A stretch of DNA of 36,647 nt from a virus. The stretch is from positions 1 to 36,647 of IMG/VR virus record IMGVR_UViG_3300005608_000013; one strand, 5' to 3'. This document shows, in pieces, positions 1,892 to 16,910 of this stretch. Numbering within the stretch: position 1 is the stretch's first letter; every line of letters begins with the position of its first letter. The position numbers and the translations under genes were made by a program. The notes beneath the pieces were generated by a model, which saw only the letters and a program-made list of their open reading frames with translations, had not been told where the DNA came from and made no database searches.

Positions 1892-4411
1892 TTAACCAAA
1901 CATGGCTTCTAGTGTGGCACGTTTCTTGGCAGACCATCCGATCTGATCAAGAATCACGGTGAGTGGATCAAGAAATGCTTTAGAAAATTGCATATCATAA
2001 TCAATGTATTCCTCTAGTTTAAACTCAGAGGGGAGTGTCCTAAAGAAAGAGATGACATTTTGGAAGTCACCCTTAGACCCATGACGACCAAGTTTATTAG
2101 GTGTCTTTAGGAAGACATACTTGATCTTTTCTCCCTCTTGAATCAAGGGATACTTGTGGGTAAGATTCTTTTCTTTGATAGAGTTATTATATAGTAGCAC
2201 ACCTCGGACGTGAATGGGGCAATGTGCTCCATACAACTCCTTAGGGTGGTGATACTTCTTGAGATTGTTGCATGACCGTGGAAATGCAATCTCATCTGTA
2301 GGTAGTGACTTAAACTTTTTCTCAAAATCTTTGACAAACTGCTGCACCTTCCTCTCATCAGTATTCATCATGAGTTTTAGGACGTCACGGAGTGCTCCAC
2401 GACATGATGATGGGGTGGAGGATTTGACTGCCTCAATACCCATGATCTTTAGTGAAGGCTCATTGTATCTGACACCCTCACTGTCCCATACGTTTAGAAT
2501 ATATCTTTTCTTAGCAGTCCAGACACCACGATTAGCGATGTTTTCTCGCTTCATAAACATCTTCTGCTCGTAGGCATTTACATAGGTTGCCAATTCTTGA
2601 TAAGAATTCTGTATATACTTTTCAAATTCCACATCACACACCTTCGCAAGGAACCGCAATACGCTTTGATCGCTCTCCTCTCTGCCCTTGAATATCTTTT
2701 TAACCAGAGGATCCATATGCAAATAAATGGAATCGGTATCAGAAGCAATAACATAATCTTTGTTGTCTGTCTCTAATAGTTTATTAAGAAATTTGTTTAT
2801 CTTATTTTCAATCCATCGGATAGAGACCTGACCAGATAGAGTGATTGCCTCAGCATTTGCCAAGTTATAATAGCGGAAGTATTGATTACCAATAGCACCA
2901 TAGGCACTATTGAGTTGAATCTTCCTTGCCATTTGGATGTTGTTGAAGGTGGAGATATCATTCTTTAGTTTAGGATCACCAGTCTTCTCAAACTCCTGCT
3001 TGGCAGCGAGCATTTTCTTCTTGAAGATCTTTCTTTCATCGTAGATGCGTTGCATCATCTCAGGAAGAAATCCATGTATATCCTTACGATACTGAGCACC
3101 ATTAGCACAGACAGCGTAATCAGGATGAGCAGTAAATTCTTCATCGAGGATCTTGTCCACAGAAACTCTAGGATGTCTCTCATCGACAAGCGTCTCAGGA
3201 GAGATGTTATACTGCATTATAAGGTGTGGATACAGAGAATTCAAGTCAAAACTACATACCCAGTCATAAACACCAGGCACAGGCTCTTTGACATATGCAC
3301 CCGCATACTTGTCATCTTTCTCGGATGTCTGCTTAGGGGGCACAACAATATTCTTCTGATACAAATCATTATAGATGAGAGTATCCCACATCTTTACCTG
3401 TGAAAACACATCATCAATGTTTACCTTGGCATCGTATGCCATAGTGACTGCCAACTCAACAAGTTTCATCTTGCCTTCTAGTTGATCAACCAGTTGCACG
3501 TCATGGATGTTGTAGTCTACAAACTTCTGCCAGTCAGATGTATAGAAGTCTTTAAAGTTTTCATACATGCTATGGTCAAGTTTGTGCTCACCCAATTCAA
3601 CAGTAGAGATATGCTCTAGACTGTAGGATTCTTGTGCGGAATAGGTAAACTTCTTGTATAGATCAAGGTAGTCAAGGATAGTGACACCTAGAATATCGTA
3701 AACAATATTTGCTCGGCCTTGCACATTTATGGTGCGATCTTTTACTACATTCCAAGGTGAGAGACTCTTCATCCACTTCTCTCCTAGGATCTTCTCAATC
3801 CTACGACAGATATAAGGCATGTCATAGAAGTTATTATTCCACCCTGTGATGATATCAGGGGTGTCATGCACCCAATGCTTGTGGAAATCCTGCAGCATTT
3901 CATGCTCAGTATTGAAGACACGATACTCCACATCCTTGGGAGGATCATACTCTCTCGTGCCCCATGTGATGATCTTCTTGGTCATCATATTCTTCATGGT
4001 GATGCACAACATATCCTCCTGACATGCTTCTACATCAGGGAATCCATTCTCACATGCAACCTCAATATCGATTGTCCATATACTCATCAAATTCATGTCA
4101 TAGTGGACACGAGTAGGGTGTTTCTGGGCGATGTGTTGGAAAACAAATCGCTCATACCCATGCACTTCCATTCCTTCTACGTCGGAATACTTCTGCAGGA
4201 AGTCTCGTGCCTCACGGACACCATCAAACTTTTTCTTATGTGCATACCTGCCATCCAGAGTCTTATACTTGGAGGTCTTTGATTGATTTGCAGGCACCAA
4301 ATAAAGAGAAGGGGATGTCTTCTCACGGTATTGCACACGCTCACCGTTACGATATCCCCTTACCAACGCAGTGTCACCAAAGATGATTACGTTAGTATAA
4401 AAATCACTCAT
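1892..4411 (-). CDS. gp43: Family B replicative DNA polymerase gp43
   Basis: This 839-residue family B polymerase is intact and slightly shorter than T4 gp43 (898). The 3'-5' exonuclease motifs are Exo I D115-x-E117 (IWTIDIEV), Exo II N192 to D197 (WNNNFYD) and Exo III Y300-xxx-D304. The polymerase motifs are A at D389 (SFDLNSLYP), B around K497 ([14 protein letters not shown]) and C as DTD at 558-560. A KKRY motif (AKKRYIL) follows. The enzyme copies the phage genome with clamp gp45 and loader gp44/62. The ATG at 4411 overlaps the preceding small gene by eight bases. No split or intron is seen. In T4 its translation is repressed by RegA, which is also encoded in this window. Confidence 0.97.
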
Positions 4412-4673: not shown

Positions 4674-5013
4674 CTTTTCGTGACTTTTTAATGGTTTGCA
4701 ATGCCTCTTCGTATCGCTTGAGGACTTCCCAATGTGGATCAGCGATACTTACGACGTGTTGAAGTGAAATGAAATTAGACCCAACAGTCAAAGGGAAGAA
4801 TGGATAGAATCGCATACGAATATTACCAAGTGGATTCTCTTTACCTGCTTCTTCAACCAAGAATTCTTGGTCATTCATTTCCAGTTGAATGGAAAAGGAA
4901 TCAATAAATTCGTATGCAAGAACACGAGCATCATCGCCCTCAGAGTTTCTAACCTCTTTGATATCAGCGATTACGTCCTCGCCGTTTGCCATTCTTGCTA
5001 CCTTTACGCTCAT
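4618..5013 (-). CDS. Small Sm-like protein, possible paralogue B
   Basis: This 131-residue protein begins MSVKVARMANGEDVIADIKEV. The N-terminal pattern K-x-x-x-x-x-GE-x-V-x-x-x-I is typical of small Sm-like barrels that many phages encode without known function. It continues with alternating strands, then VVSIADPHWEVLKRYEEAL, a strand-Pro-helix ending shared with 4404-4673 and 22728-23150. The final 25 residues are charged and probably disordered. The ATG at 5013 was chosen over one at 5043 because it starts exactly at the conserved first strand. It overlaps the upstream 53-residue gene by 50 bases. A role in RNA or nucleoprotein handling is inference only. Confidence 0.75.
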   Translation of the reverse strand: MSVKVARMANGEDVIADIKEVRNSEGDDARVLAYEFIDSFSIQLEMNDQEFLVEEAGKENPLGNIRMRFYPFFPLTVGSNFISLQHVVSIADPHWEVLKRYEEALQTIKKSRKDDVKVDYSEIPPSGLVIG

Positions 5014-5125
5014 AGTTTTTCTCCAATAGGGATAGCACCTCATCTAGTTTATCAGATGGCACGTCCAAAGTCAACATACTTAGATCTTTGCAGTGAGGTG
5101 GTGCCAGATTTACATACATGTTCAT
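4964..5125 (-). CDS. Small basic-tailed protein, unknown function
   Basis: This 53-residue protein starts MNMYVNLAPPHCKDLSMLTL and ends in a strongly basic tail (KGSKNGKRRGRNR). Nothing in it is recognisable; the middle (VPSDKLDEVLSLLEKNYE) is probably a helix. The ATG at 5125 was chosen because GGAG lies about 9 bases upstream (5134-5138 on the opposite strand), a good ribosome binding site; longer in-frame starts would run into a terminator-like hairpin. The 3' end overlaps the next gene by 50 bases. It is the first gene of the run leading into gene 43. The basic tail suggests contact with nucleic acid, but this is a guess. Confidence 0.6.
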   Translation of the reverse strand: MNMYVNLAPPHCKDLSMLTLDVPSDKLDEVLSLLEKNYERKGSKNGKRRGRNR

Positions 5126-5142
5126 AGTCAGTGTCTCCAAAC

Positions 5143-5170
5143 AAAAAGAGACTCCTGTGTTAAGAGTCTC
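5143..5170 (-). terminator. Rho-independent terminator-like hairpin
   Basis: On the minus strand a perfect 7-bp stem (GAGACTC ... GAGTCTC, 5148-5154 with 5164-5170) with a 9-base loop is followed at once by TTTTT (5143-5147). It lies downstream of hsp20 and immediately upstream of the ribosome binding site of the first gene of the gene 43 run. It could end the hsp20 transcript, or act as an attenuator in the leader of the polymerase operon. Confidence 0.65.
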
Positions 5171-5203
5171 ATTTCTTGTGTAGTATATAGTATACCACAG
5201 TAT

Positions 5204-5386
5204 ATGTCCATGAAATTGTTGTCGGTGCTTAAGCACCCAGTGACCCAATTCAATTTGATTGTCCTAGGAATGCTAGGACTCATTCAGATCATACACACCC
5301 ATGCCCACTATAAAATGGAGATGGATGTGCATGCATACTGTAAACAGAATGCAGAGTGGGTAGAGTCCCAGTCTACTGAATATTAA
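5204..5386 (+). CDS. Small plus-strand membrane protein
   Basis: This 60-residue frame (MSMKLLSVLKHPVTQFNLIV at the start) is one of the few plus-strand genes. ATG codons at 5204 and 5210 are both possible, and neither has a clear Shine-Dalgarno sequence. A hydrophobic stretch (NLIVLGMLGLIQII) is followed by a hydrophilic tail with several His residues and one Cys. It reads like a single-pass membrane protein with a short external or periplasmic tail. Its 3' end overlaps the convergent hsp20 stop by 14 bases. The AT-rich palindromic segment just upstream (TAGTATATAGTATAC) could hold promoters in both directions. No function can be assigned. Confidence 0.55.
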   Translation: MSMKLLSVLKHPVTQFNLIVLGMLGLIQIIHTHAHYKMEMDVHAYCKQNAEWVESQSTEY

Positions 5387-5819
5387 ATACCTTTCTCTTC
5401 TGATGCTCTGGGACAATTTTTGTTAGTGTCACAGAGAGTAATCCATTATTAAATGACACGTCCCCTACCTCTACGTCATCGCTTAGATTAAATCCTCTAG
5501 CAAATGTCCTTGCTGCTACACCTCTATGGATGTATTCTTGCTTGTCTGTGTCATCCTTATCAACGGATCTGATCGTTAGCACGTTTGTTTCTGTAGCTAC
5601 TTCAATCTGGTCTCGATCCCAACCTGCTAGTGCTAATTCGATTCTCCATGTAGTGTCAGACTCTTTTACAATATTATATGGAGGGTATTGTGTCTGTGGA
5701 GACCCAATTCCATACGCATGTAGTCTATAAAATAGATCGTCAAACCCTACACTGTAGCGATTTGCTGCATCAAAAATTGCATCGACATCCTTAGATGTCC
5801 ACTTTGTTAGTCCTGTCAT
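5373..5819 (-). CDS. hsp20: Small heat shock protein Hsp20
   Basis: This 148-residue alpha-crystallin-type chaperone has an N-terminal arm of about 45 residues, then the crystallin domain from PPYNIVKESDTTWRIELALAG through NVLTIRS to FARGFNLSDDVEV and NGLLSVTLTKIVPE, ending with basic KRKVFNIQ. The family holds unfolding proteins without using ATP. A hsp20 gene is a hallmark of T4-like cyanophages and has been suggested to help protect host photosystems or assist assembly; the role here is inferred. The ATG at 5819 has an excellent ribosome binding site (AAAGGAG). A CTAAATA late-type promoter lies about 55 bases upstream, with a hairpin at the start of the leader. Confidence 0.93.
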   Translation of the reverse strand: MTGLTKWTSKDVDAIFDAANRYSVGFDDLFYRLHAYGIGSPQTQYPPYNIVKESDTTWRIELALAGWDRDQIEVATETNVLTIRSVDKDDTDKQEYIHRGVAARTFARGFNLSDDVEVGDVSFNNGLLSVTLTKIVPEHQKRKVFNIQ

Positions 5820-5848
5820 AATTCTCCTTTAAAAGCGAGTTTTGTTGT

Positions 5849-5869
5849 GTGATCCCCGAAGGCAATCAC
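5849..5869 (-). promoter_or_regulatory. hsp20: Stem-loop at the 5' end of the hsp20 leader
   Basis: On the minus strand GTGAT and ATCAC pair around an inner CC/GG stem, with one wobble pair, one mismatch and a three-base TTC loop. It would begin within a few bases of a transcript initiated at the CTAAATA element at 5873-5879. A 5'-end stem-loop could stabilise the mRNA or respond to temperature, but only the potential pairing is seen. Confidence 0.45.
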
Positions 5870-5872
5870 CTA

Positions 5873-5879
5873 TATTTAG
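5873..5879 (-). promoter_or_regulatory. Late promoter element for hsp20
   Basis: CTAAATA (within GCTAAATATAG) resembles the -10-like TATAAATA element recognised by the T4 late sigma gp55, which is encoded in this window. It lies about 55 bases upstream of the hsp20 start codon. The same core precedes several other genes here. Confidence 0.55.
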
Positions 5880-5952
5880 CGTCTATCACTACGTTTTGTA
5901 TAGGGTAATACCCGAAGAAATATTTGGTAACAACCGTCTAAAAATAAAATGC

Positions 5953-5959
5953 CTAAATA
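5953..5959 (+). promoter_or_regulatory. Late promoter element for the exported-protein genes
   Basis: CTAAATA on the plus strand, 29 bases upstream of the ATG at 5988. The spacing leaves room for a short leader with the GAGG ribosome binding site. It suggests that the three plus-strand exported proteins are made late, with the virion proteins. Confidence 0.55.
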
Positions 5960-5987
5960 GAGCTAGCACATCCCTCGCGAGGATAAA

Positions 5988-6491
5988 ATGAAAAAAATTT
6001 CAGCAGTGCTTTTCGGAATGTTTATGTTGACCGCACCCGCACAGGCGGATATTACGCATCGCTTGTCCAGTAGTGTACAACTCACTGTGGATGCAGCTGC
6101 AACAAATGTACAGAGAGTCGGTAGCTCATATGCTGTCACAGGTAACAACGTTACCACACAATATACACCTTCGGGTGGTAGTGCAACGAGCTCTATCGGT
6201 GCCCTTACTATCTCCTCAGGCGTTGGAGCGATCCCTTCGTTGTCAGCGACCCAAGCAACTGCAGGAGAAAGTTTCAGCTTCTCTCAAACCTTCTATCAAG
6301 GTGATGCTCTAGGTAGTAGTGCACCAACAGTAGGAGAAGTTCATAACTTCAGTAACCAGACAAGTACTGCTGCAGGTAGTGCAGGAAGTCTAGCTGGTAC
6401 TATTGATTCATCGTCAACGGTGGGTCTAACGGCTGGAGGAGCAGGCACATCTGCGACTGGACAATTCACTAGCGAAATCCTAATCAAGTAG
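5988..6491 (+). CDS. Exported protein, Ser/Thr/Gly-rich, unknown
   Basis: This 167-residue protein has a textbook Sec signal peptide: MKK, a hydrophobic core, then APAQA with predicted cleavage after residue 20. The mature part is low in charge and rich in Ser, Thr, Gly and Ala with alternating beta-like segments. It shares an order of motifs with the next gene: a Tyr-x-Val-Ser/Thr-Gly segment, an SxSIGxxT-like segment and FSFxxTF/Y followed by a Gly-Leu segment, suggesting a gene duplication. The ATG follows GAGG by five bases. An exported protein on the strand opposite to the virion genes is unusual in this phage group. No enzyme motif is seen; a role on the cell surface or in the periplasm is inference. 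Confidence 0.8.
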   Translation: MKKISAVLFGMFMLTAPAQADITHRLSSSVQLTVDAAATNVQRVGSSYAVTGNNVTTQYTPSGGSATSSIGALTISSGVGAIPSLSATQATAGESFSFSQTFYQGDALGSSAPTVGEVHNFSNQTSTAAGSAGSLAGTIDSSSTVGLTAGGAGTSATGQFTSEILIK

Positions 6492-6492
6492 G

Positions 6493-6957
6493 ATGATAAA
6501 GAGGTTTACTATAGGCATATTGTTACTGTGTAGCAGTGCTGCACAGGCAGTGCCTGTAGTACCTAATTTTCAGCAAGGCCAGATGACTAGCCACACAGAA
6601 ACTACTTCTGAAGTGACAGAAATTATAAATTCGATGGATTATTCCACAGGATATACATATAGTGTGTCAGGCCATGGCGTAAAACCTAGCGATAATAGTG
6701 CTATTACGCCCCAGAATTCAACAAGCATAGGTGTCACTGCTCCCCAAACATCTACATCTAGTAATGGTATTAATTCGACATGGACAGGATTGAATCTCGA
6801 CCCAAGCAACAGACCCACATGGGTACAGTCCACACCTGGTGGAAACTTCAGTTTCATGGAGACGTATCACGGACCAGGTCTTCAAAATCACACGATCATA
6901 GAAAGAACAACAAAAATTCAAAGCGTAACAGATACCACAAGTATCTTTACCCAGTAA
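6493..6957 (+). CDS. Exported protein, probable paralogue of the preceding gene
   Basis: This 154-residue protein starts MIKRFTIGILLLCSSAAQA, a Sec signal peptide with likely cleavage after residue 19. The mature part is Ser/Thr/Asn-rich. Segments YTYSVSGHGV, NSTSIGVT and GNFSFMETYHGPGL correspond in order to SYAVTGNNV, ATSSIGALT and ESFSFSQTFYQGDAL of the preceding protein, so the two are probably homologous. The start lies one base after the preceding stop (TAG G ATG), indicating coupling. A Cys at residue 13 is not in a proper lipobox. The 3' part overlaps the next frame, which may be reached by a frameshift. Function unknown. Confidence 0.75.
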   Translation: MIKRFTIGILLLCSSAAQAVPVVPNFQQGQMTSHTETTSEVTEIINSMDYSTGYTYSVSGHGVKPSDNSAITPQNSTSIGVTAPQTSTSSNGINSTWTGLNLDPSNRPTWVQSTPGGNFSFMETYHGPGLQNHTIIERTTKIQSVTDTTSIFTQ

Positions 6958-7703
6958 TAGCAGCTCTCTTTGCTGCTCCTGTTAACGCTGAAACAGTAGG
7001 TGGTGTGTCTGCGACAGCAAATCCAGTCGCGAATAGTTCTGGCTCAGTGACCAACCAGGCAATTCAAGTTTTACAAGGTCCGTATATACAAAATGGTTAT
7101 GGTGATGGCATTGTGTGTCAGGGACCTACCGCCAATTTCACACCATATGTCACAAGAAATACTTCATGGAATTTTCCATATGAATCGCACTATGATGATC
7201 CAGTGTACAACATGCTTGACCTTGTTGGTGACTTTGATGACAGTGGCAACCCGATACCAGATGGAATACCAGACAAACCTGGTGAAATTCTCTACCATCG
7301 CAGGATCAGGACAGGTCAGAAAGATAACTACAACTGGAATGCAGGTTTCTCTGCCACTATTTCGTGGCCACTAGATAGAAAAGCACAAGAGTTGTGTAAG
7401 GAAGCTGCAAAAAATCACAACGAATTGCGTGAGCAAATCCTTGCTAACCGTAGATTAGAATTTGAGCTTACCAGACTCACCAAATGTGGTCAGTTAGCTC
7501 AGGATGGTATTACTTTCGCTAGTTGGAGTCCTTACTTTAATCTATGCAAAGATGTGGTAGTGCAACCTAAGGTTATCCAAGGTGTGCCACATACACATAG
7601 TATTAATTCTTCCTCTTCAAAGGTGGTAAACCCCTCTGGAGACGGTAACGATCCGTCCTCCGTTCTGAAAGAGATAAGTATCGGGAATTCTTCCCAGAAG
7701 TAA
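6780..7703 (+). CDS. Exported Cys-containing protein, start unresolved
   Basis: This open frame clearly codes from about 6912: a basic segment (KRNRYHKYLYP) and a hydrophobic stretch ending AAPVNA form a signal-peptide-like start, followed by a soluble domain of about 240 residues. That domain has several Cys (IVCQGP, ELCKEA, TKCGQL, FNLCKD), an aromatic region, a heptad-like helix (KNHNELREQILANRRLEFEL) and an acidic DFDDSGNPIPDG loop. There is no ATG, GTG or TTG close to the signal segment; the nearest ATGs at 6780 and 6819 lie inside the preceding gene and have no ribosome binding site. A -1 frameshift at AAAAATT (6912-6918), another start codon or a sequencing error would each explain this. 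The listed start is only the longest frame. The 3' end overlaps the convergent gene by 101 bases. Confidence 0.62.
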   Translation: MDRIESRPKQQTHMGTVHTWWKLQFHGDVSRTRSSKSHDHRKNNKNSKRNRYHKYLYPVIAALFAAPVNAETVGGVSATANPVANSSGSVTNQAIQVLQGPYIQNGYGDGIVCQGPTANFTPYVTRNTSWNFPYESHYDDPVYNMLDLVGDFDDSGNPIPDGIPDKPGEILYHRRIRTGQKDNYNWNAGFSATISWPLDRKAQELCKEAAKNHNELREQILANRRLEFELTRLTKCGQLAQDGITFASWSPYFNLCKDVVVQPKVIQGVPHTHSINSSSSKVVNPSGDGNDPSSVLKEISIGNSSQK

Positions 7704-8397
7704 GTTTTTTCATTACCTTCTTAACAGCAGGTTTCACAACCTTTAGTAGTAAATCTGCTAAAGGTTTTGCTAATAGAGCAGAGGTTGTTGCAACTACAGC
7801 AATGGATGTTGTAGCCATTACTGCTCCTGCAGTAGGAATATTACCAACAATCTGATCAGGTACAGATACCTTGATCTTTATGGGGACACATTCAACCGTG
7901 TCTCCATTTTTTATGAGTTTATACTCGACAATCTTTTGATCACCAATTACTGTGCCTACTGGCTCCTTCGCTGCTTGGATCTCAGTAGGACATTCTTGCT
8001 GTACAGTCTCTGGTTTGGATATGTTTTTAGGCACCTCTGCAGGAGGCACTTCTGCTACAGGAGGCTCCTTATATACAGGCACAGGTGCCTTGTATTCATA
8101 CTGTATTTTACTAGCATCATAGTCTATAGGTGTGAAAGACGGTGTGCCTGAGTCACATAGGACTCTGGTGCCTCTAGTATCGTCTTGTCTTAGTTGATCC
8201 TGTATCTTACCAGTGCTTGATTGCTCCTTATGATATGTAACACAACCAGGTATATTAATAATTGGCGTGCCAATCTGTGAGGTTATGGGGTGCAGGTTAG
8301 GTAAAACCGTAGGCACCTCCCTTAACCACTCAGGAGTATAAATTTGAGGAATATTTCTTACTCCTACATCTCTAATCTGTAGATTCGGTATCGACAT
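7603..8397 (-). CDS. Pro-rich protein with C-terminal membrane segment, unknown
   Basis: This 264-residue protein starts MSIPNLQIRDVGVRNIPQIY and is not recognised. The first 95 residues are rich in Pro and Ile. A Pro/Glu/Val/Lys segment follows (VPVYKEPPVAEVPPAEVPK), then a region with two Cys. Near the C-terminus is a hydrophobic stretch (GAVMATTSIAVVATTSALLA) and a very basic tail (KKVMKKLTSGKNSR, KRKN). This looks like a membrane-anchored protein with an extended Pro-rich stalk, or a membrane-active one. The start at 8397 was chosen over 8463 because it gives a modest 26-base overlap with the upstream gene. Its last 101 bases are antisense to the end of the convergent exported-protein gene. 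Confidence 0.7.
   Translation of the reverse strand: MSIPNLQIRDVGVRNIPQIYTPEWLREVPTVLPNLHPITSQIGTPIINIPGCVTYHKEQSSTGKIQDQLRQDDTRGTRVLCDSGTPSFTPIDYDASKIQYEYKAPVPVYKEPPVAEVPPAEVPKNISKPETVQQECPTEIQAAKEPVGTVIGDQKIVEYKLIKNGDTVECVPIKIKVSVPDQIVGNIPTAGAVMATTSIAVVATTSALLAKPLADLLLKVVKPAVKKVMKKLTSGKNSRYLSLSERRTDRYRLQRGLPPLKRKN
7683..7712 (+). terminator. Weak terminator for the plus-strand genes
   Basis: GGGAA-TTC-TTCCC (7683-7695) forms a 5-bp hairpin and a TTTTTT run follows at 7705-7710, just past the stop at 7703. The gap between stem and T-run is longer than ideal. It lies in the convergent overlap. Confidence 0.35.
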
Positions 8398-8986
8398 CTT
8401 CTTGACATGCCTCACTAAATGATGTTGCCATCTCACCACCAATCTTTGCACCTTGGTCGGCACCGCCTAACGCAACCAACCCCGCCAATACAGGTCCAAC
8501 AAATGGTATACCAGAAACAACAGGGGCTGCTGCAGCACCCATACTAGCTCCCACCACACGACCTGTTTGTGCTCCACCGCCCTCCGACTTGATGCATTCG
8601 ACCGCACGGTCGTCGAGCTTTTTTGCCGAGAAACCTGCTACACTCCCATCTTGCCAAGATCTATGGTTGGAAACTGCACCACCTTGGTTAGTCTTACCAT
8701 CCATTACATACTCCTCAACAATCTGATGCTTGGATTTACCAAATCCTAAGAAACCACTCGGCTTAGTGATGTCCTTAGTGATGTGCATCGTCTTTGGATC
8801 GTTAGCAGTGTAACTCATTTTGTATCCATCCTTGGATGCTGATACAACATATGAGCTATATGGTCCTGTAGGTGGTTGGATTACAGGTATGTTGTTTTGC
8901 TTAGAGATCATCCCAATCATACCGATATGTCCAATGCCAATCAAAGCACCGAGACCACCCGCAAACCATTTAACAGGACTATTCAT
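8372..8986 (-). CDS. Membrane protein with glycine-zipper segment, unknown
   Basis: This 204-residue protein starts MNSPVKWFAGGLGALIGIGH, with an N-terminal hydrophobic segment likely to be a signal anchor. The middle is polar with a beta-like character. Residues from about 135 to 190 form a Gly/Ala-rich zipper (GASMGAAAAPVVSGIPFVGP, VLAGLVALGG) typical of proteins that insert into or oligomerise in membranes. The tail is acidic. The start ATG overlaps the stop of the 78-residue gene upstream (ATGA), so these are one translational unit. No family is recognised. Glycine zippers occur in pore-forming, lysis and surface-assembly proteins, so several roles are possible. Confidence 0.72.
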   Translation of the reverse strand: MNSPVKWFAGGLGALIGIGHIGMIGMISKQNNIPVIQPPTGPYSSYVVSASKDGYKMSYTANDPKTMHITKDITKPSGFLGFGKSKHQIVEEYVMDGKTNQGGAVSNHRSWQDGSVAGFSAKKLDDRAVECIKSEGGGAQTGRVVGASMGAAAAPVVSGIPFVGPVLAGLVALGGADQGAKIGGEMATSFSEACQEDVDTESTD

Positions 8987-9219
8987 CTTCCTGGTAGGGT
9001 AGGAATAGCAGGTCCAGTTGCCTTAGGAATCTTTGGCACCTCTGCATCAATAGCAACAGGAAGTGCATCAGACAATAACTCCGTAATAGCACCTGTAACA
9101 CGAGACTTTACATTCTCTTTGATTGCTTCTCTTTGTAGATAAGCATATCCACCTGTGCCTACAATGGCAAGAGAAACAACACCTGCGAAGAGAGCAAGTC
9201 CGTCAATAATTTTTCTCAT
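8983..9219 (-). CDS. Small single-pass membrane protein
   Basis: This 78-residue protein starts MRKIIDGLALFAGVVSLAIV. Its N-terminal hydrophobic stretch runs to about residue 25 and ends GGYAYLQREA. The rest is an amphipathic helix and a Pro-rich end (PKIPKATGPAIPTLPGR). The topology resembles an inner-membrane anchor with a periplasmic tail, in size and shape like an i-spanin, though no coiled coil is evident. AAGGAG-like bases (aaggagtaaatt, read on the minus strand) precede the ATG at 9219, a good ribosome binding site. It overlaps the next gene by four bases and follows the upstream gene after three bases. Confidence 0.72.
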   Translation of the reverse strand: MRKIIDGLALFAGVVSLAIVGTGGYAYLQREAIKENVKSRVTGAITELLSDALPVAIDAEVPKIPKATGPAIPTLPGR

Positions 9220-9222
9220 AAT

Positions 9223-9525
9223 TTACTCCTTTTCTTTTTTGGCAACGTATTCCACAGTGTATGTGGTCTTAGCACCTGCACCTGGCTTCTGATTGTTATC
9301 ATTCTTTTTGGTCGTGGCGACGCCAAAAGTAGCTAGTGTTCCTGTGAAGACTGAAGCTATAAAAGTTGGATCGATATTGGTCTTTGCTAGACCTGGCACC
9401 TGTAAATAATTAATTGTCAGGATAGCCGCGGACCACCCAAGGATAGTAAGACGCACCAAAGTGGCGACACCTTCATCCAGTAAGTCAAACTTTTTTTCTT
9501 TGTTTGGCTTAGAGGTTTCAGCCAT
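9223..9525 (-). CDS. Two-helix membrane protein, holin-like shape
   Basis: This 100-residue protein has a charged N-terminus (MAETSKPNKEKKFDLLDEG), a first hydrophobic helix (TILGWSAAILTINYL), a short loop, a second helix (FIASVFTGTLATFGVA) and a basic tail ending EYVAKKEKE. Two helices with a charged tail in about 100 residues is the layout of class II holins, so a lysis role is possible; nothing in the sequence proves it. It is the first gene of the four-gene minus-strand membrane set. A CTAAATA late-type element lies at 9546-9552, about 20 bases upstream of the start, and overlaps the end of regA. Confidence 0.72.
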   Translation of the reverse strand: MAETSKPNKEKKFDLLDEGVATLVRLTILGWSAAILTINYLQVPGLAKTNIDPTFIASVFTGTLATFGVATTKKNDNNQKPGAGAKTTYTVEYVAKKEKE

Positions 9526-9545: not shown

Positions 9546-9552
9546 TATTTAG
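9546..9552 (-). promoter_or_regulatory. Late promoter element for the membrane-protein genes
   Basis: CTAAATA on the minus strand (within GCTAAATAG), 21 bases upstream of the ATG at 9525 and overlapping the regA stop codon. It would separate expression of the membrane cassette from the early and middle regA transcript. Confidence 0.5.
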
Positions 9553-9980: not shown

Positions 9981-10366
9981 TTCATTCCTCCGCTATTCAA
10001 TTTAGACCTAATAACTTGGATTTCTTCCTTGTTTAGCAGTTTCAGTGCTGCCTCTGCCTTCTCCGTAGAATAGTTATAGTACTTTTTAACTAGGTCAAGA
10101 TCTGGATGAGTGGACTTCTTTGCCCAAGGGGAAAACCTTTTAGATTTCCTAACACTATGTATAAAAAAGTTATATTGCATGTCCTTATCTAGTGTGCTAC
10201 CAAGGCGATTCATCTCATTGGAATGCATGATAGTGTCAATAAAATATGACAGTGCTTTGTTGACCATGAATGCAGGATAATGTCTCATATACCCCTCATC
10301 TTGGGTATAATCTGCATTCTTTAGGTTGATTGAGTTAACGTAGTCAAAGGGATTGTAGTCTGCGGA
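9977..10366 (-). CDS. gp62: Clamp loader small subunit gp62
   Basis: This 129-residue protein matches the gp62 subunit of the T4 clamp loader: YPAFMVNKALSYFIDTIMHS and MNRLGSTLDKDMQYNFFIHS with the following KRFSPWAKK are characteristic. T4 gp62 is longer (187). It joins four gp44 subunits to open and load the gp45 ring on DNA. The ATG at 10366 (MSADYNPFDYVNSINL) was chosen because NPFDYVNSI is the usual start of cyanophage gp62; upstream ATGs at 10393 and 10417 would lie deeper within pcyA. It overlaps pcyA by 23 bases and regA by 4. Adjacency to regA is conserved with T4. Confidence 0.88.
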   Translation of the reverse strand, partial: SADYNPFDYVNSINLKNADYTQDEGYMRHYPAFMVNKALSYFIDTIMHSNEMNRLGSTLDKDMQYNFFIHSVRKSKRFSPWAKKSTHPDLDLVKKYYNYSTEKAEAALKLLNKEEIQVIRSKLNSGGMK

Positions 10367-11051
10367 CATTTGGTTTATCAAATAAAATTTCATTAATGTA
10401 GTTGTCTGCCCATGCCTCATCAAACCACTGTGATAAGACCGCTTTCGTCTTTTTATTCTTTCTTTGTGAATTACAGTAGTGACACTGGTCATCTATCCTA
10501 TGCATGATAGGCACCCATTCTCCTAGTGTGCCATTGTCATCATCATACTCTGCATTTTTGATGCAATCAGTCATTACTTTGAGGTATTCACCAGTTACAC
10601 CTAGAAAATCCTCTCTTGCCTCAGGGGTTTTTAACCTAGCAAATTTACAGAAAGGAGAGAAGACATCCTCTGCCCACAGTGGTAGCATTCGCCAGTCATC
10701 AAACGTATATCTTGATGAAATTGGTGCTAATTTAGCACCTAAATCGACACCTGTGACAGGTGATATGTCAACTATGGCAGCAGTAACTTGTGTTGGTGTT
10801 TCTATTATATCACATCCAAAGATAGGGATGCGATACTTAGGAATAGGGTAGAAAACACAGTGCACAATCTTTAATTTCTCACCTAGAGATGCTCTTTCGA
10901 TGTGCAACTTTCTCATGCCTCTACACTTCCACATCTCATTGCGGATAGTGATATCACCCTTCCGAATTAGCTTGTGTTTTGACTCTAATATCTCAATAGC
11001 AGGTAATGAAACCAGACTTTGACGTAAGAGATCTGCTAATTCATCCTGCAT
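10344..11051 (-). CDS. pcyA: Phycocyanobilin:ferredoxin oxidoreductase PcyA
   Basis: This 235-residue protein is a ferredoxin-dependent bilin reductase closest to PcyA. Its C-terminal part (HYCNSQRKNKKTKAVLSQWF, then DEAWADNYINEILFD) follows the cyanobacterial PcyA pattern closely, more so than PebS. Catalytic residues known from Synechocystis PcyA all have counterparts: H74 and E76 as H50 and E52 (LHIE), H88 as H64 (VHCV) and D105 as D81 (FGCD). PcyA reduces biliverdin IX-alpha to phycocyanobilin using four electrons from ferredoxin. No heme oxygenase is in the window, so biliverdin would come from the host or a distant phage gene. It sits inside the replication operon between the methylase and gp62, overlapping both. 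Confidence 0.92.
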   Translation of the reverse strand: MQDELADLLRQSLVSLPAIEILESKHKLIRKGDITIRNEMWKCRGMRKLHIERASLGEKLKIVHCVFYPIPKYRIPIFGCDIIETPTQVTAAIVDISPVTGVDLGAKLAPISSRYTFDDWRMLPLWAEDVFSPFCKFARLKTPEAREDFLGVTGEYLKVMTDCIKNAEYDDDNGTLGEWVPIMHRIDDQCHYCNSQRKNKKTKAVLSQWFDEAWADNYINEILFDKPNVRRLQSL

Positions 11052-15241: not shown

Positions 15242-16335
15242 TACGAATTAAACAGAGTTTCTACTTGAGACATGTCTACCTCACCATCAATCTTATCATA
15301 AAGATCGAGGAATGACTGCTTTGTTTCGTCATCGAAACGGTTGAGGCAAACCTTGATTGCCTTTGCACGATCAGAGAAGATCGCATATGCACGAATGATG
15401 TGCACAAGACGACGAGTAGAGATGACTTCATCAACACCACCTTCTCTGAATGTCCTACGGATCATGTCTGCCCATGTCACAAGGTTAGCAATATATTTGT
15501 CGTCGCATGCATCCAACTCTTTGCAGTAGTTGTTAAGCATTTTTGTTTCGATAGCAGGAGTAGGATACTCTTGCTCAAATGTGAGAGGGAATCTCTCAAG
15601 GAATGCTTCGTTGAGCACGTTAGTGCCGATAAAACGACCATCGTCGCTACCTTTACCCTTCGTGTTTGCAGTAGCAATCACTGTGAATCCTTTTGCAGGT
15701 TTCACATACCTACCGATCTTCTTGAGGAAGACTCCACTACCTTCAAGAATAGACTGAAGACAGAGGATTTTGTTGGACGCAAGGTCAATCTCGTCTAGAA
15801 GGAGGACAGCTCCCCTCTCCAAAGCTTCGATGACAGGACCGTTGTGCCAAACTGTATTGCCATCCACAAGACGAAACCCACCAATAAGATCATCTTCGTC
15901 TGTTTCAATGGTAATGTTTACACGAATCAACTCTCTATTTAGAGCAGCACATGCTTGCTCTACACCCATAGTCTTACCGTTTCCTGACAAACCTGTGATG
16001 AATGCAGGATAGAATACTTTGGACTTGATGATCTTTTTGAGATCAGAGAAGTTACCGAAGGGGACAAAGTTGTTATCTTTAGTTGGAATCAAGCGATCTT
16101 GGACTGGTGTTGCTTTGTATGACTTCTCAAGAGTTTCCTTCTTCTCAGTAAGAGTAAGATCCCACTTGCCAATACCTTTCTTGTATTGCTTCAAGCGTTT
16201 TTTGACAGTCGCAACGGAGCAGTCAAAGTGATCTGCTGCAGCAACAAGTTGTTGGAAGGTAACTTCGTTACCGTGCTTACCAGAAAGATAAGTCTTGAGG
16301 TCTTCAGTGGTCACAGGGACAGGAGCGAATGGCAT
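15241..16335 (-). CDS. cobS: MoxR-type AAA+ ATPase, CobS-like
   Basis: This 364-residue AAA+ protein has Walker A GLSGNGKT at residues 115-122, a beta-hairpin insert region (DDLIGGFRLVDGN), Walker B VLLLDEID ending near 164, and sensor 1 ATANTKGKG. It belongs to the MoxR/CobS group and is usually named cobS in cyanophages. True CobS acts with CobN and CobT in cobalt insertion for vitamin B12, but neither CobN nor other cobalamin genes are here. The N-terminal 90 residues hold a small helical, possibly DNA-binding segment (CSVATVKKRLKQYKKG). MoxR ATPases work with VWA-domain partners; the VWA protein at 16907-19120 is a fitting partner. The chaperone-type role is inference. Confidence 0.88.
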   Translation of the reverse strand: MPFAPVPVTTEDLKTYLSGKHGNEVTFQQLVAAADHFDCSVATVKKRLKQYKKGIGKWDLTLTEKKETLEKSYKATPVQDRLIPTKDNNFVPFGNFSDLKKIIKSKVFYPAFITGLSGNGKTMGVEQACAALNRELIRVNITIETDEDDLIGGFRLVDGNTVWHNGPVIEALERGAVLLLDEIDLASNKILCLQSILEGSGVFLKKIGRYVKPAKGFTVIATANTKGKGSDDGRFIGTNVLNEAFLERFPLTFEQEYPTPAIETKMLNNYCKELDACDDKYIANLVTWADMIRRTFREGGVDEVISTRRLVHIIRAYAIFSDRAKAIKVCLNRFDDETKQSFLDLYDKIDGEVDMSQVETLFNS

Positions 16336-16360
16336 GTTTTGTATTTGTGTCTATACAGAT

Positions 16361-16366
16361 ATTATA
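16361..16366 (-). promoter_or_regulatory. Possible promoter -10 for the cobS-clamp operon
   Basis: A perfect TATAAT on the minus strand lies 26 bases upstream of the cobS start, overlapping the end of the preceding gene. No good -35 box is seen at the right distance, so it may need an activator, as T4 middle promoters do. Confidence 0.35.
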
Positions 16367-16910
16367 CAAGTAAAAAGTCGGCAATGCCACTCCGAGTGGA
16401 CAGTATCCAATCTGGTCTACGGTCTGGTTTGCGAAGGTAATTATCGGGTGCCCATGGTTTACTAGCAACATAGCGTTTGTATGCTGTTACTGTAGAGATA
16501 GTGGTATCGTATTTAAACTCGTCAGGACCTGCAAAGACAAAAGGTGTGTGCCTAGCACTACAACCTTCGGGTGCAATATGTGCTGCGAATCGTATAGACT
16601 TTTCGCAACCATGCTCTTTATTATATCTATATGTGTATTCCTCACAAAGTGCAATACCATGCTCTAGCAACCAAGCAATATTATGTGGAGATTCTGCAAC
16701 CCACTTGGTGCAAGGGTGATTACGAAAGGCACCCTTCTCTGTTTTGTATGGATCGCCATTAGACTTGAAAACCTGACCGATATTGTGATACCAGTCAGAG
16801 TAAACAATGGATAACATTTGGCATGTTTCTAATGGCATCTTAACAACGTGCTTATCTGGCAGTTGGTATGCTGCCAGATAGGGATCGTTATTAACTGCGA
16901 AGATATTCAT
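16362..16910 (-). CDS. Conserved phage protein with DKHVVKM and NHPC motifs
   Basis: This 182-residue protein starts MNIFAVNNDPYLAAYQL, followed by PDKHVVKMPLETCQML, then FRNHPCTKWVAESPHNIAWL and ALCEEYTYRYNKEHG. I recognise the pattern as a family widespread in phages whose members begin with xIFxxxxDP and carry DKHxVKM and NHPC-x-W motifs. I cannot assign a proven function; some relatives are labelled as pyrimidine-dimer glycosylases, which I do not consider supported here. His, Lys, Cys and Trp in these motifs look like active-site residues. It lies between the VWA protein (ATGA overlap) and cobS, so it may belong to that pair. Confidence 0.78.
   Translation of the reverse strand: MNIFAVNNDPYLAAYQLPDKHVVKMPLETCQMLSIVYSDWYHNIGQVFKSNGDPYKTEKGAFRNHPCTKWVAESPHNIAWLLEHGIALCEEYTYRYNKEHGCEKSIRFAAHIAPEGCSARHTPFVFAGPDEFKYDTTISTVTAYKRYVASKPWAPDNYLRKPDRRPDWILSTRSGIADFLLV

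Follow-up and report, generated by a model that had tools for sequence, protein, structure and literature searches.

Much ocean carbon is moved by the viral lysis of Prochlorococcus and Synechococcus. In coliphages, disruption of the cell wall and outer membrane is the job of Rz/Rz1-type spanins; in T7, a type II holin (17.5) is encoded between the tail-fibre gene and the gene for the terminase small subunit (TerS), with Rz/Rz1 (18.5/18.7) directly past TerS. Some cyanophages have recognizable endolysin cassettes of their own. T4-like cyanophages also share a gene cluster of another kind: the main text of Sullivan et al. 2010 (PMC3037559) reports T4-GCs 218, 219, 234, 235 and 237 clustered in every cyanophage of that study except S-PM2, supposes that they are linked ‘for functional reasons’ and suggests a ‘plasmid stability’ member as the source of the cluster’s mobility. 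Here we examine the same genes, in the same phages, starting from a window of 36,647 nucleotides (the whole 36.6-kb stretch analysed, IMG/VR record IMGVR_UViG_3300005608_000013) from a T4-like cyanophage whose identity to P-TIM40 in this region is 97.3%. The space between regA and hsp20 is occupied by seven genes, g1–g7, in which plus-strand g1–g3 converge on minus-strand g4–g7 (Table 1). The block itself has been known since 2010, in a main text that gives no function, promoter analysis or link to T7-like phages or lysis; what is new is the occurrence of its core set in the T7-like lysis slot. We propose that in most marine T4-like cyanophages the block is probably a module for late lysis through the host envelope, with g7 as a class II holin-like pore and g1–g4 as proteins that disrupt the envelope, which would name candidates for the lysis genes of most marine cyanophages.

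The overlapping genes g7–g2–g3 occur in the T7-like phages P-SSP7, P-SSP3, S-RIP2 and P-RSP2 and in 80 IMG/VR contigs, and essentially all of these 80 whose ends permit the check carry a [g4′]–g7–g2–g3 operon. In several T7-like cyanophages g4′ is detectable upstream of the other three, and g4 and g4′ have homologous C-terminal transmembrane (TM) domains (hhalign 95.6%, E = 1.2e-8); g6 was not found in the T7-like sets. The independent PHROGs grouping places P-SSP7 044 together with g2 in phrog_650 (E = 1.7e-32). In P-SSP7 and P-SSP3 the set is located between the tail-fibre genes and the terminase small subunit, the same two genes that enclose the T7 holin. The likeness to T7 extends to a small two-TM protein and to an exported or anchored pair whose reading frames overlap, with −1 as the frame of the second. 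However, no sequence similarity to the T7 lysis genes was found, g3 starts in g2 and extends past it rather than being embedded, the set lies entirely before TerS, and no endolysin was found with the cassette.

Two further phages carry the genes in other arrangements. In MED4-184, which is unclassified, 38 kb long and annotated with an excisionase, g7–g1–g2–g3 face g4–g6 (positions 5741–8617 of the stretch examined), and the block is therefore not confined to T4-like and T7-like phages. In S-TIM5, g1–g2–g3 and g4 face each other beside the Hsp20 gene, and g7 lies elsewhere in the genome; the candidates gp020 and gp021, behind g7, were rejected as g2 and g3, the true g1–g4 being elsewhere in S-TIM5. 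The core of the block recurs in three unrelated phage lineages. All of the sequence relatives that we found belong to phages of picocyanobacteria, marine or freshwater.

The distribution of endolysins is nearly complementary to that of the block. The T7-like phages P60 and S-CBP42 lack the set, and an endolysin occupies the same slot (P60: PHROG lysis match, 2.8e-31). In the T4-like phage S-PM2, regA directly adjoins hsp20 and g1–g7 are absent; near nrdB it encodes a C39 peptidase (PHROG endolysin, 2e-99), a lysozyme and a lytic transglycosylase bearing a signal peptide. The endolysin cassettes compared (P60 gp37–gp39, S-CBP42 gp14–16, S-PM2 p156–p160, S-B68 and S-CREM2 gp168–170) resemble the block in taking the same T7-like slot or replacing the T4-like block and in encoding exported proteins, but differ in having their own recognizable GH19, C39, lysozyme or lytic transglycosylase proteins and no relatives of g1–g6. 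Across 21 whole genomes, partly chosen for having either system and counted without regard to relatedness, g3 and a GH19 endolysin were mutually exclusive: 12 had g3, eight had the endolysin and Syn5 had neither. The 12 cassette genomes contained no Amidase_2 (for which T7 served as the positive control) or Peptidase_M15, and a phage lysozyme was found among them in S-SM1 only, inside a 925-residue open reading frame. No g3, g7 or phrog_181 was found in S-CRM01. The C39 peptidase has 106 records; with a single exception these carry the name Synechococcus phage or cyanophage, and ACG-2014f is heavily represented. About 50 ACG-2014f records carry a C39/lysozyme pair like that of S-PM2, and none is among the cassette matches listed, which were evenly sampled. 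Because of this near-complementary distribution and the T7 lysis slot, lysis is the best supported of four envelope options.

Two observations concern the endolysin loci themselves. In the P60 slot the endolysin is followed by a one-TM coiled-coil protein, which is kept in the slot of Syn5, a phage without a match to g3, g7 or GH19; a protein that resembles it by eye lies near the endolysin of S-B68, which is T4-like and has no g3. Proteins of this kind (phrog_12220 for Syn5 gp47 and P60 gp38) are repeatedly found next to an endolysin or to the T7-like lysis slot (6393–6653, 4062–4325 and 5432–5692 of the three genome stretches examined), and such a protein may be the spanin of cassette-less cyanophages. 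Separately, the ‘putative lysin’ p157 of S-PM2 is annotated with 72 residues, and extension upstream (16208–16717 of the stretch examined) gives a lysozyme-like protein of 169 residues.

A sequence-only reading of the window had described three genes with signal-like starts facing four membrane-protein genes, no recognizable enzyme motif in any of the seven and a CTAAATA late-type element for each arm, and all of this withstood analysis. The seven genes are present as described. Searches against Pfam, NCBIfam, PHROGs and PADLOC matched no known enzyme, and no murein hydrolase domain was found in g1–g7 (Pfam, NCBIfam and PHROG lysis matches). All seven have PHROG matches, none with a useful function, and Pfam matches are restricted to g2 and g7, in families without assigned function. 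We take the CTAAATA heptamer to be a cyanophage late promoter. It is not significantly enriched within the window itself (7 copies, 6.1 expected), and its placement was counted over 92 T4-like loci: the 120 nt before g1 contain it in 44 of 80 relatives and the 120 nt before g7 in 25 of 71, compared with 1.2% of background windows, whereas it precedes g2–g5 in 0–1 relatives and g6 in 6 of 75. From this conservation at both heads and near absence upstream of g2–g5, it follows that the block would consist of two conserved late-type operons.

Late, exported or membrane-bound proteins might also remodel the envelope or exclude superinfection, changing the surface of the infected cell so as to control adsorption or keep out other phages. 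That the block is restricted to picocyanobacterial phages, and that cyanophages are reported to lack the r genes with which T4 governs lysis inhibition and superinfection (PMC2984593), would suit such a role. Yet the T7-like position is the lysis slot, a distribution complementary to that of endolysins is unexpected for an exclusion system, the promoters are late and not early, and PADLOC defence models matched none of the seven proteins (0 families); we regard exclusion as unlikely.

The block is largely kept as a unit. IMG/VR relatives maintain the order g1 g2 g3 > < g4 (g5) g6 g7, with 40 loci complete and 17 more missing just g5, and a few loci have insertions between g4 and g7. The phage records for each gene number between 365 and 444, and almost all of them bear cyanophage names. 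Because g5 and g6 are optional or displaced, the block is a core of about five genes with accessories. The earlier proposal of a single late system acting on the host envelope accordingly holds for the conservation of the block, its late elements and a core found in three lineages, and has to be relaxed for g5 and g6; lysis, one of the roles that it had listed, is the one that we favour. Variable position in some genomes, insertions that split the block and the unoccupied regA–hsp20 junction of S-PM2 are also what would be seen if the genes formed a mobile cluster, held by the plasmid-stability gene of Sullivan et al. 2010 and clustered for some other function. We consider this very improbable: the gene so labelled is g6, a single-pass protein that was not found in the T7-like sets, and its ‘plasmid stability’ name, which it carries in PHROG 568 and many records, is unsupported by Pfam, NCBIfam and PADLOC. 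A host origin of the block was rejected, as the genome contigs with matches look like phage contigs that were binned with single cells, isolates or metagenomes. The assembly of Nonlabens xiamenensis 1Q3 includes a contig of 188,235 bases, P-TIM40-like in size, on which the cassette is complete and 99% identical; this contig probably stems from cyanophage DNA that contaminated the bacterial assembly.

Among the exported proteins, g1 and g2 are paralogues (hhalign 95.7%, E = 8.8e-9). The third probably begins inside the second: the earliest in-frame ATG for g3 lies within g2 in the −1 frame, so that about 178 nt of the g2 3′ end (6780–6957) are overlapped. The signal-like stretch of g3, KRNRYHKYLYPVIAALFAAPVNA, is located at the end of g2, and the mature protein, with four conserved cysteines, would begin at about 6990. 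The −1 frame is kept in 177 of 178 loci, and for nearly every T4-like locus the start is assigned to an in-frame ATG some 54–58 codons ahead of the g2 stop. The overlap looks like genuine dual coding because the synonymous diversity of g2 falls from near the g3 ATG (0.87–0.88 ahead of the overlap, 0.57–0.79 within it). A programmed −1 frameshift from g2 into g3 was considered, as an ATG for g3 is missing altogether from some T7-like loci; internal initiation is simpler, since the in-frame ATG is kept in nearly all T4-like loci. Public annotations place the g3 start too far downstream and lose the signal (P-TIM40, GTG at 7005; P-SSP7_045).

A profile search of solved structures with g1, g2, g3, g4 and g7 gave no significant match. 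The two AlphaFold2 models are of medium or low quality (predicted local distance difference test (pLDDT) scores of 65.9 and 75.9; predicted template modelling (TM) score 0.38): the g2 model shows two strands, each some 24 residues long (pLDDT about 80–90 in the strands, predicted TM-score 0.38), and the g3 model a β-domain and a 42-residue helix. Such predicted shapes would fit an envelope role and are no proof of one. Foldseek found no match below 1e-3 for g2 in the PDB; many β-pore proteins with long hairpins appear at lower ranks, with TM-scores below 0.25, and are not used here as evidence. For g3, significant matches among viral models are confined to proteins of cyanophages or uncultured marine phages. 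The overlapping frames of g2 and g3 are a spanin feature; the lipobox is lacking from both, as Cys13 of the window g2 is absent from its relatives, the signal ends in AxA and no lipobox was found in g3. As for an inner-membrane spanin, the 42-residue helix of g3 follows a cleavable-looking signal, and g6 has an N-terminal TM segment with a short predicted periplasmic tail.

The elongated β model of g2, its weak top Foldseek match to a phage tail protein (E = 5e-3, TM-score 0.23) and the position of the set after the tail-fibre gene cluster in T7-like phages would also be compatible with g1–g4 being exported or membrane-associated parts of the particle or its assembly, and Sullivan et al. 2010 (PMC3037559) found that the S-SM1 virion contains 18 hypothetical proteins. 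Assembly of phage tails takes place in the cytoplasm, and the signal peptides of g1–g3 argue against incorporation; a virion role seems to us rather improbable. The S-CREM2 virion list is neutral here and could not be used as a test, because S-CREM2 has no g3.

The membrane arm supplies the holin candidate. Small, with two predicted TM segments and charged ends, g7 has the size and topology of a class II holin; its hydrophobic segments lie at about residues 20–38 and 54–72, the latter weak, the values for T7 17.5 are similar, and the P-SSP7 orthologue is annotated with two TM segments. Its position is likewise that of a class II holin, in the lysis slot of T7-like relatives and behind a late-type element in T4-like ones. 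The 3′ end of g4 overlaps g3, and an alternative g4 start at 8463 is not conserved. The literature that we searched contained no paper on DUF6450 and no study of cyanophage holins and spanins.

Table 1. The seven-gene block and its late-type elements, in window coordinates (T4-GC numbers assigned by position from the annotated S-SM1 and P-SSM2 loci).
Feature	Position	Strand	T4-GC	PHROG	Description
CTAAATA, plus arm	5953–5959	+			28 nt upstream of g1 ATG
g1	5988–6491	+	237	564	Exported, 167 aa; Sec signal ...APAQA; g2 paralogue
g2	6493–6957	+	236	650	Exported, 154 aa; Sec signal ending AQA; DUF6322 (PF19847)
g3	6780–7703	+	235	848/1755	Exported; start codon inferred
g4	7603–8397	−	234	570	264 aa, Pro-rich; C-terminal TM, basic tail
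g5	8372–8986	−	219	605	204 aa; N-terminal TM and Gly/Ala-rich hydrophobic stretch; optional member
g6	8983–9219	−	414	568	78 aa; single N-terminal TM
g7	9223–9525	−	218	721	100 aa; two TM; DUF6450 (PF20048); class II holin candidate
CTAAATA, minus arm	9546–9552	−			20 nt upstream of g7 ATG

We infer that the block causes lysis and that its proteins would divide the work as follows. In the late phase of infection, g7 would accumulate in the inner membrane and then open it, acting as a class II holin-like pore. Anchored in the same membrane, g4 and g6 (and g5 when present) would be partners with periplasmic parts, and g1, g2 and g3 would be Sec-exported periplasmic proteins that break up the wall or the outer membrane as infection ends. 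Murein might be cut in cassette phages by an unrecognized enzyme encoded elsewhere, by one of g1–g4 or by host autolysins.

Several observations weigh against lysis, beyond the make-up of the 21-genome sample and the quality of the structural models. In T4-like genomes the block lies among replication genes, away from lysis genes. No profile links g7 to curated holin families, its matches being just DUF6450 and PHROGs of unassigned function; g2 and g3 are not spanins by sequence, having neither a lipobox nor an anchoring TM segment; and, with no recognizable murein hydrolase in the block, an unrecognized endolysin would still be needed. For these reasons (no holin profile, no lipobox and no endolysin found by profile) we call the block a lysis-like module and not a holin–spanin cassette. 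Cluster C phages with an endolysin give weak g7-like matches, with stops inside the matched stretches. Finally, the freshwater phage DSL-LC02 carries g1–g2–g3 and g7 together with C39/lysozyme, which rules out a strict replacement of the endolysin by the cassette; the set is more aptly described as a partner, often unaccompanied by any recognizable endolysin. Downstream of g1–g2–g3 that phage encodes, in the same orientation, a Pro-rich protein whose C terminus is g4-like by eye (4921–8526 of the stretch examined), and the C39 peptidase and lysozyme lie a few kilobases away.

Tentatively, and with less confidence than for lysis as such, g1–g3 could represent a new class of exported lysis effector specific to the picocyanobacterial envelope, in which the paralogues g1 and g2, with their long β-hairpins, and a disulphide-bearing g3 of β-domain and helix would open the wall or outer membrane with no recognizable endolysin or spanin. 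The module would then have passed between T4-, T7-, TIM5- and MED4-184-like phages, taking the part of a classical endolysin cassette. If the lysis proposal is true, one lysis module would be common to phages by host and not by phage lineage. The candidate genes lie in phages with published genetics, and the question is therefore testable by deletion; Syn9, Syn5 and S-TIP37 have been engineered by the REEP method (PMC8776855).

Elsewhere in the window, a gene for a pcyA-like ferredoxin oxidoreductase (10344–11051) adjoins dam and two 2OG-Fe(II) oxygenase genes, an arrangement that is the same in P-TIM40.

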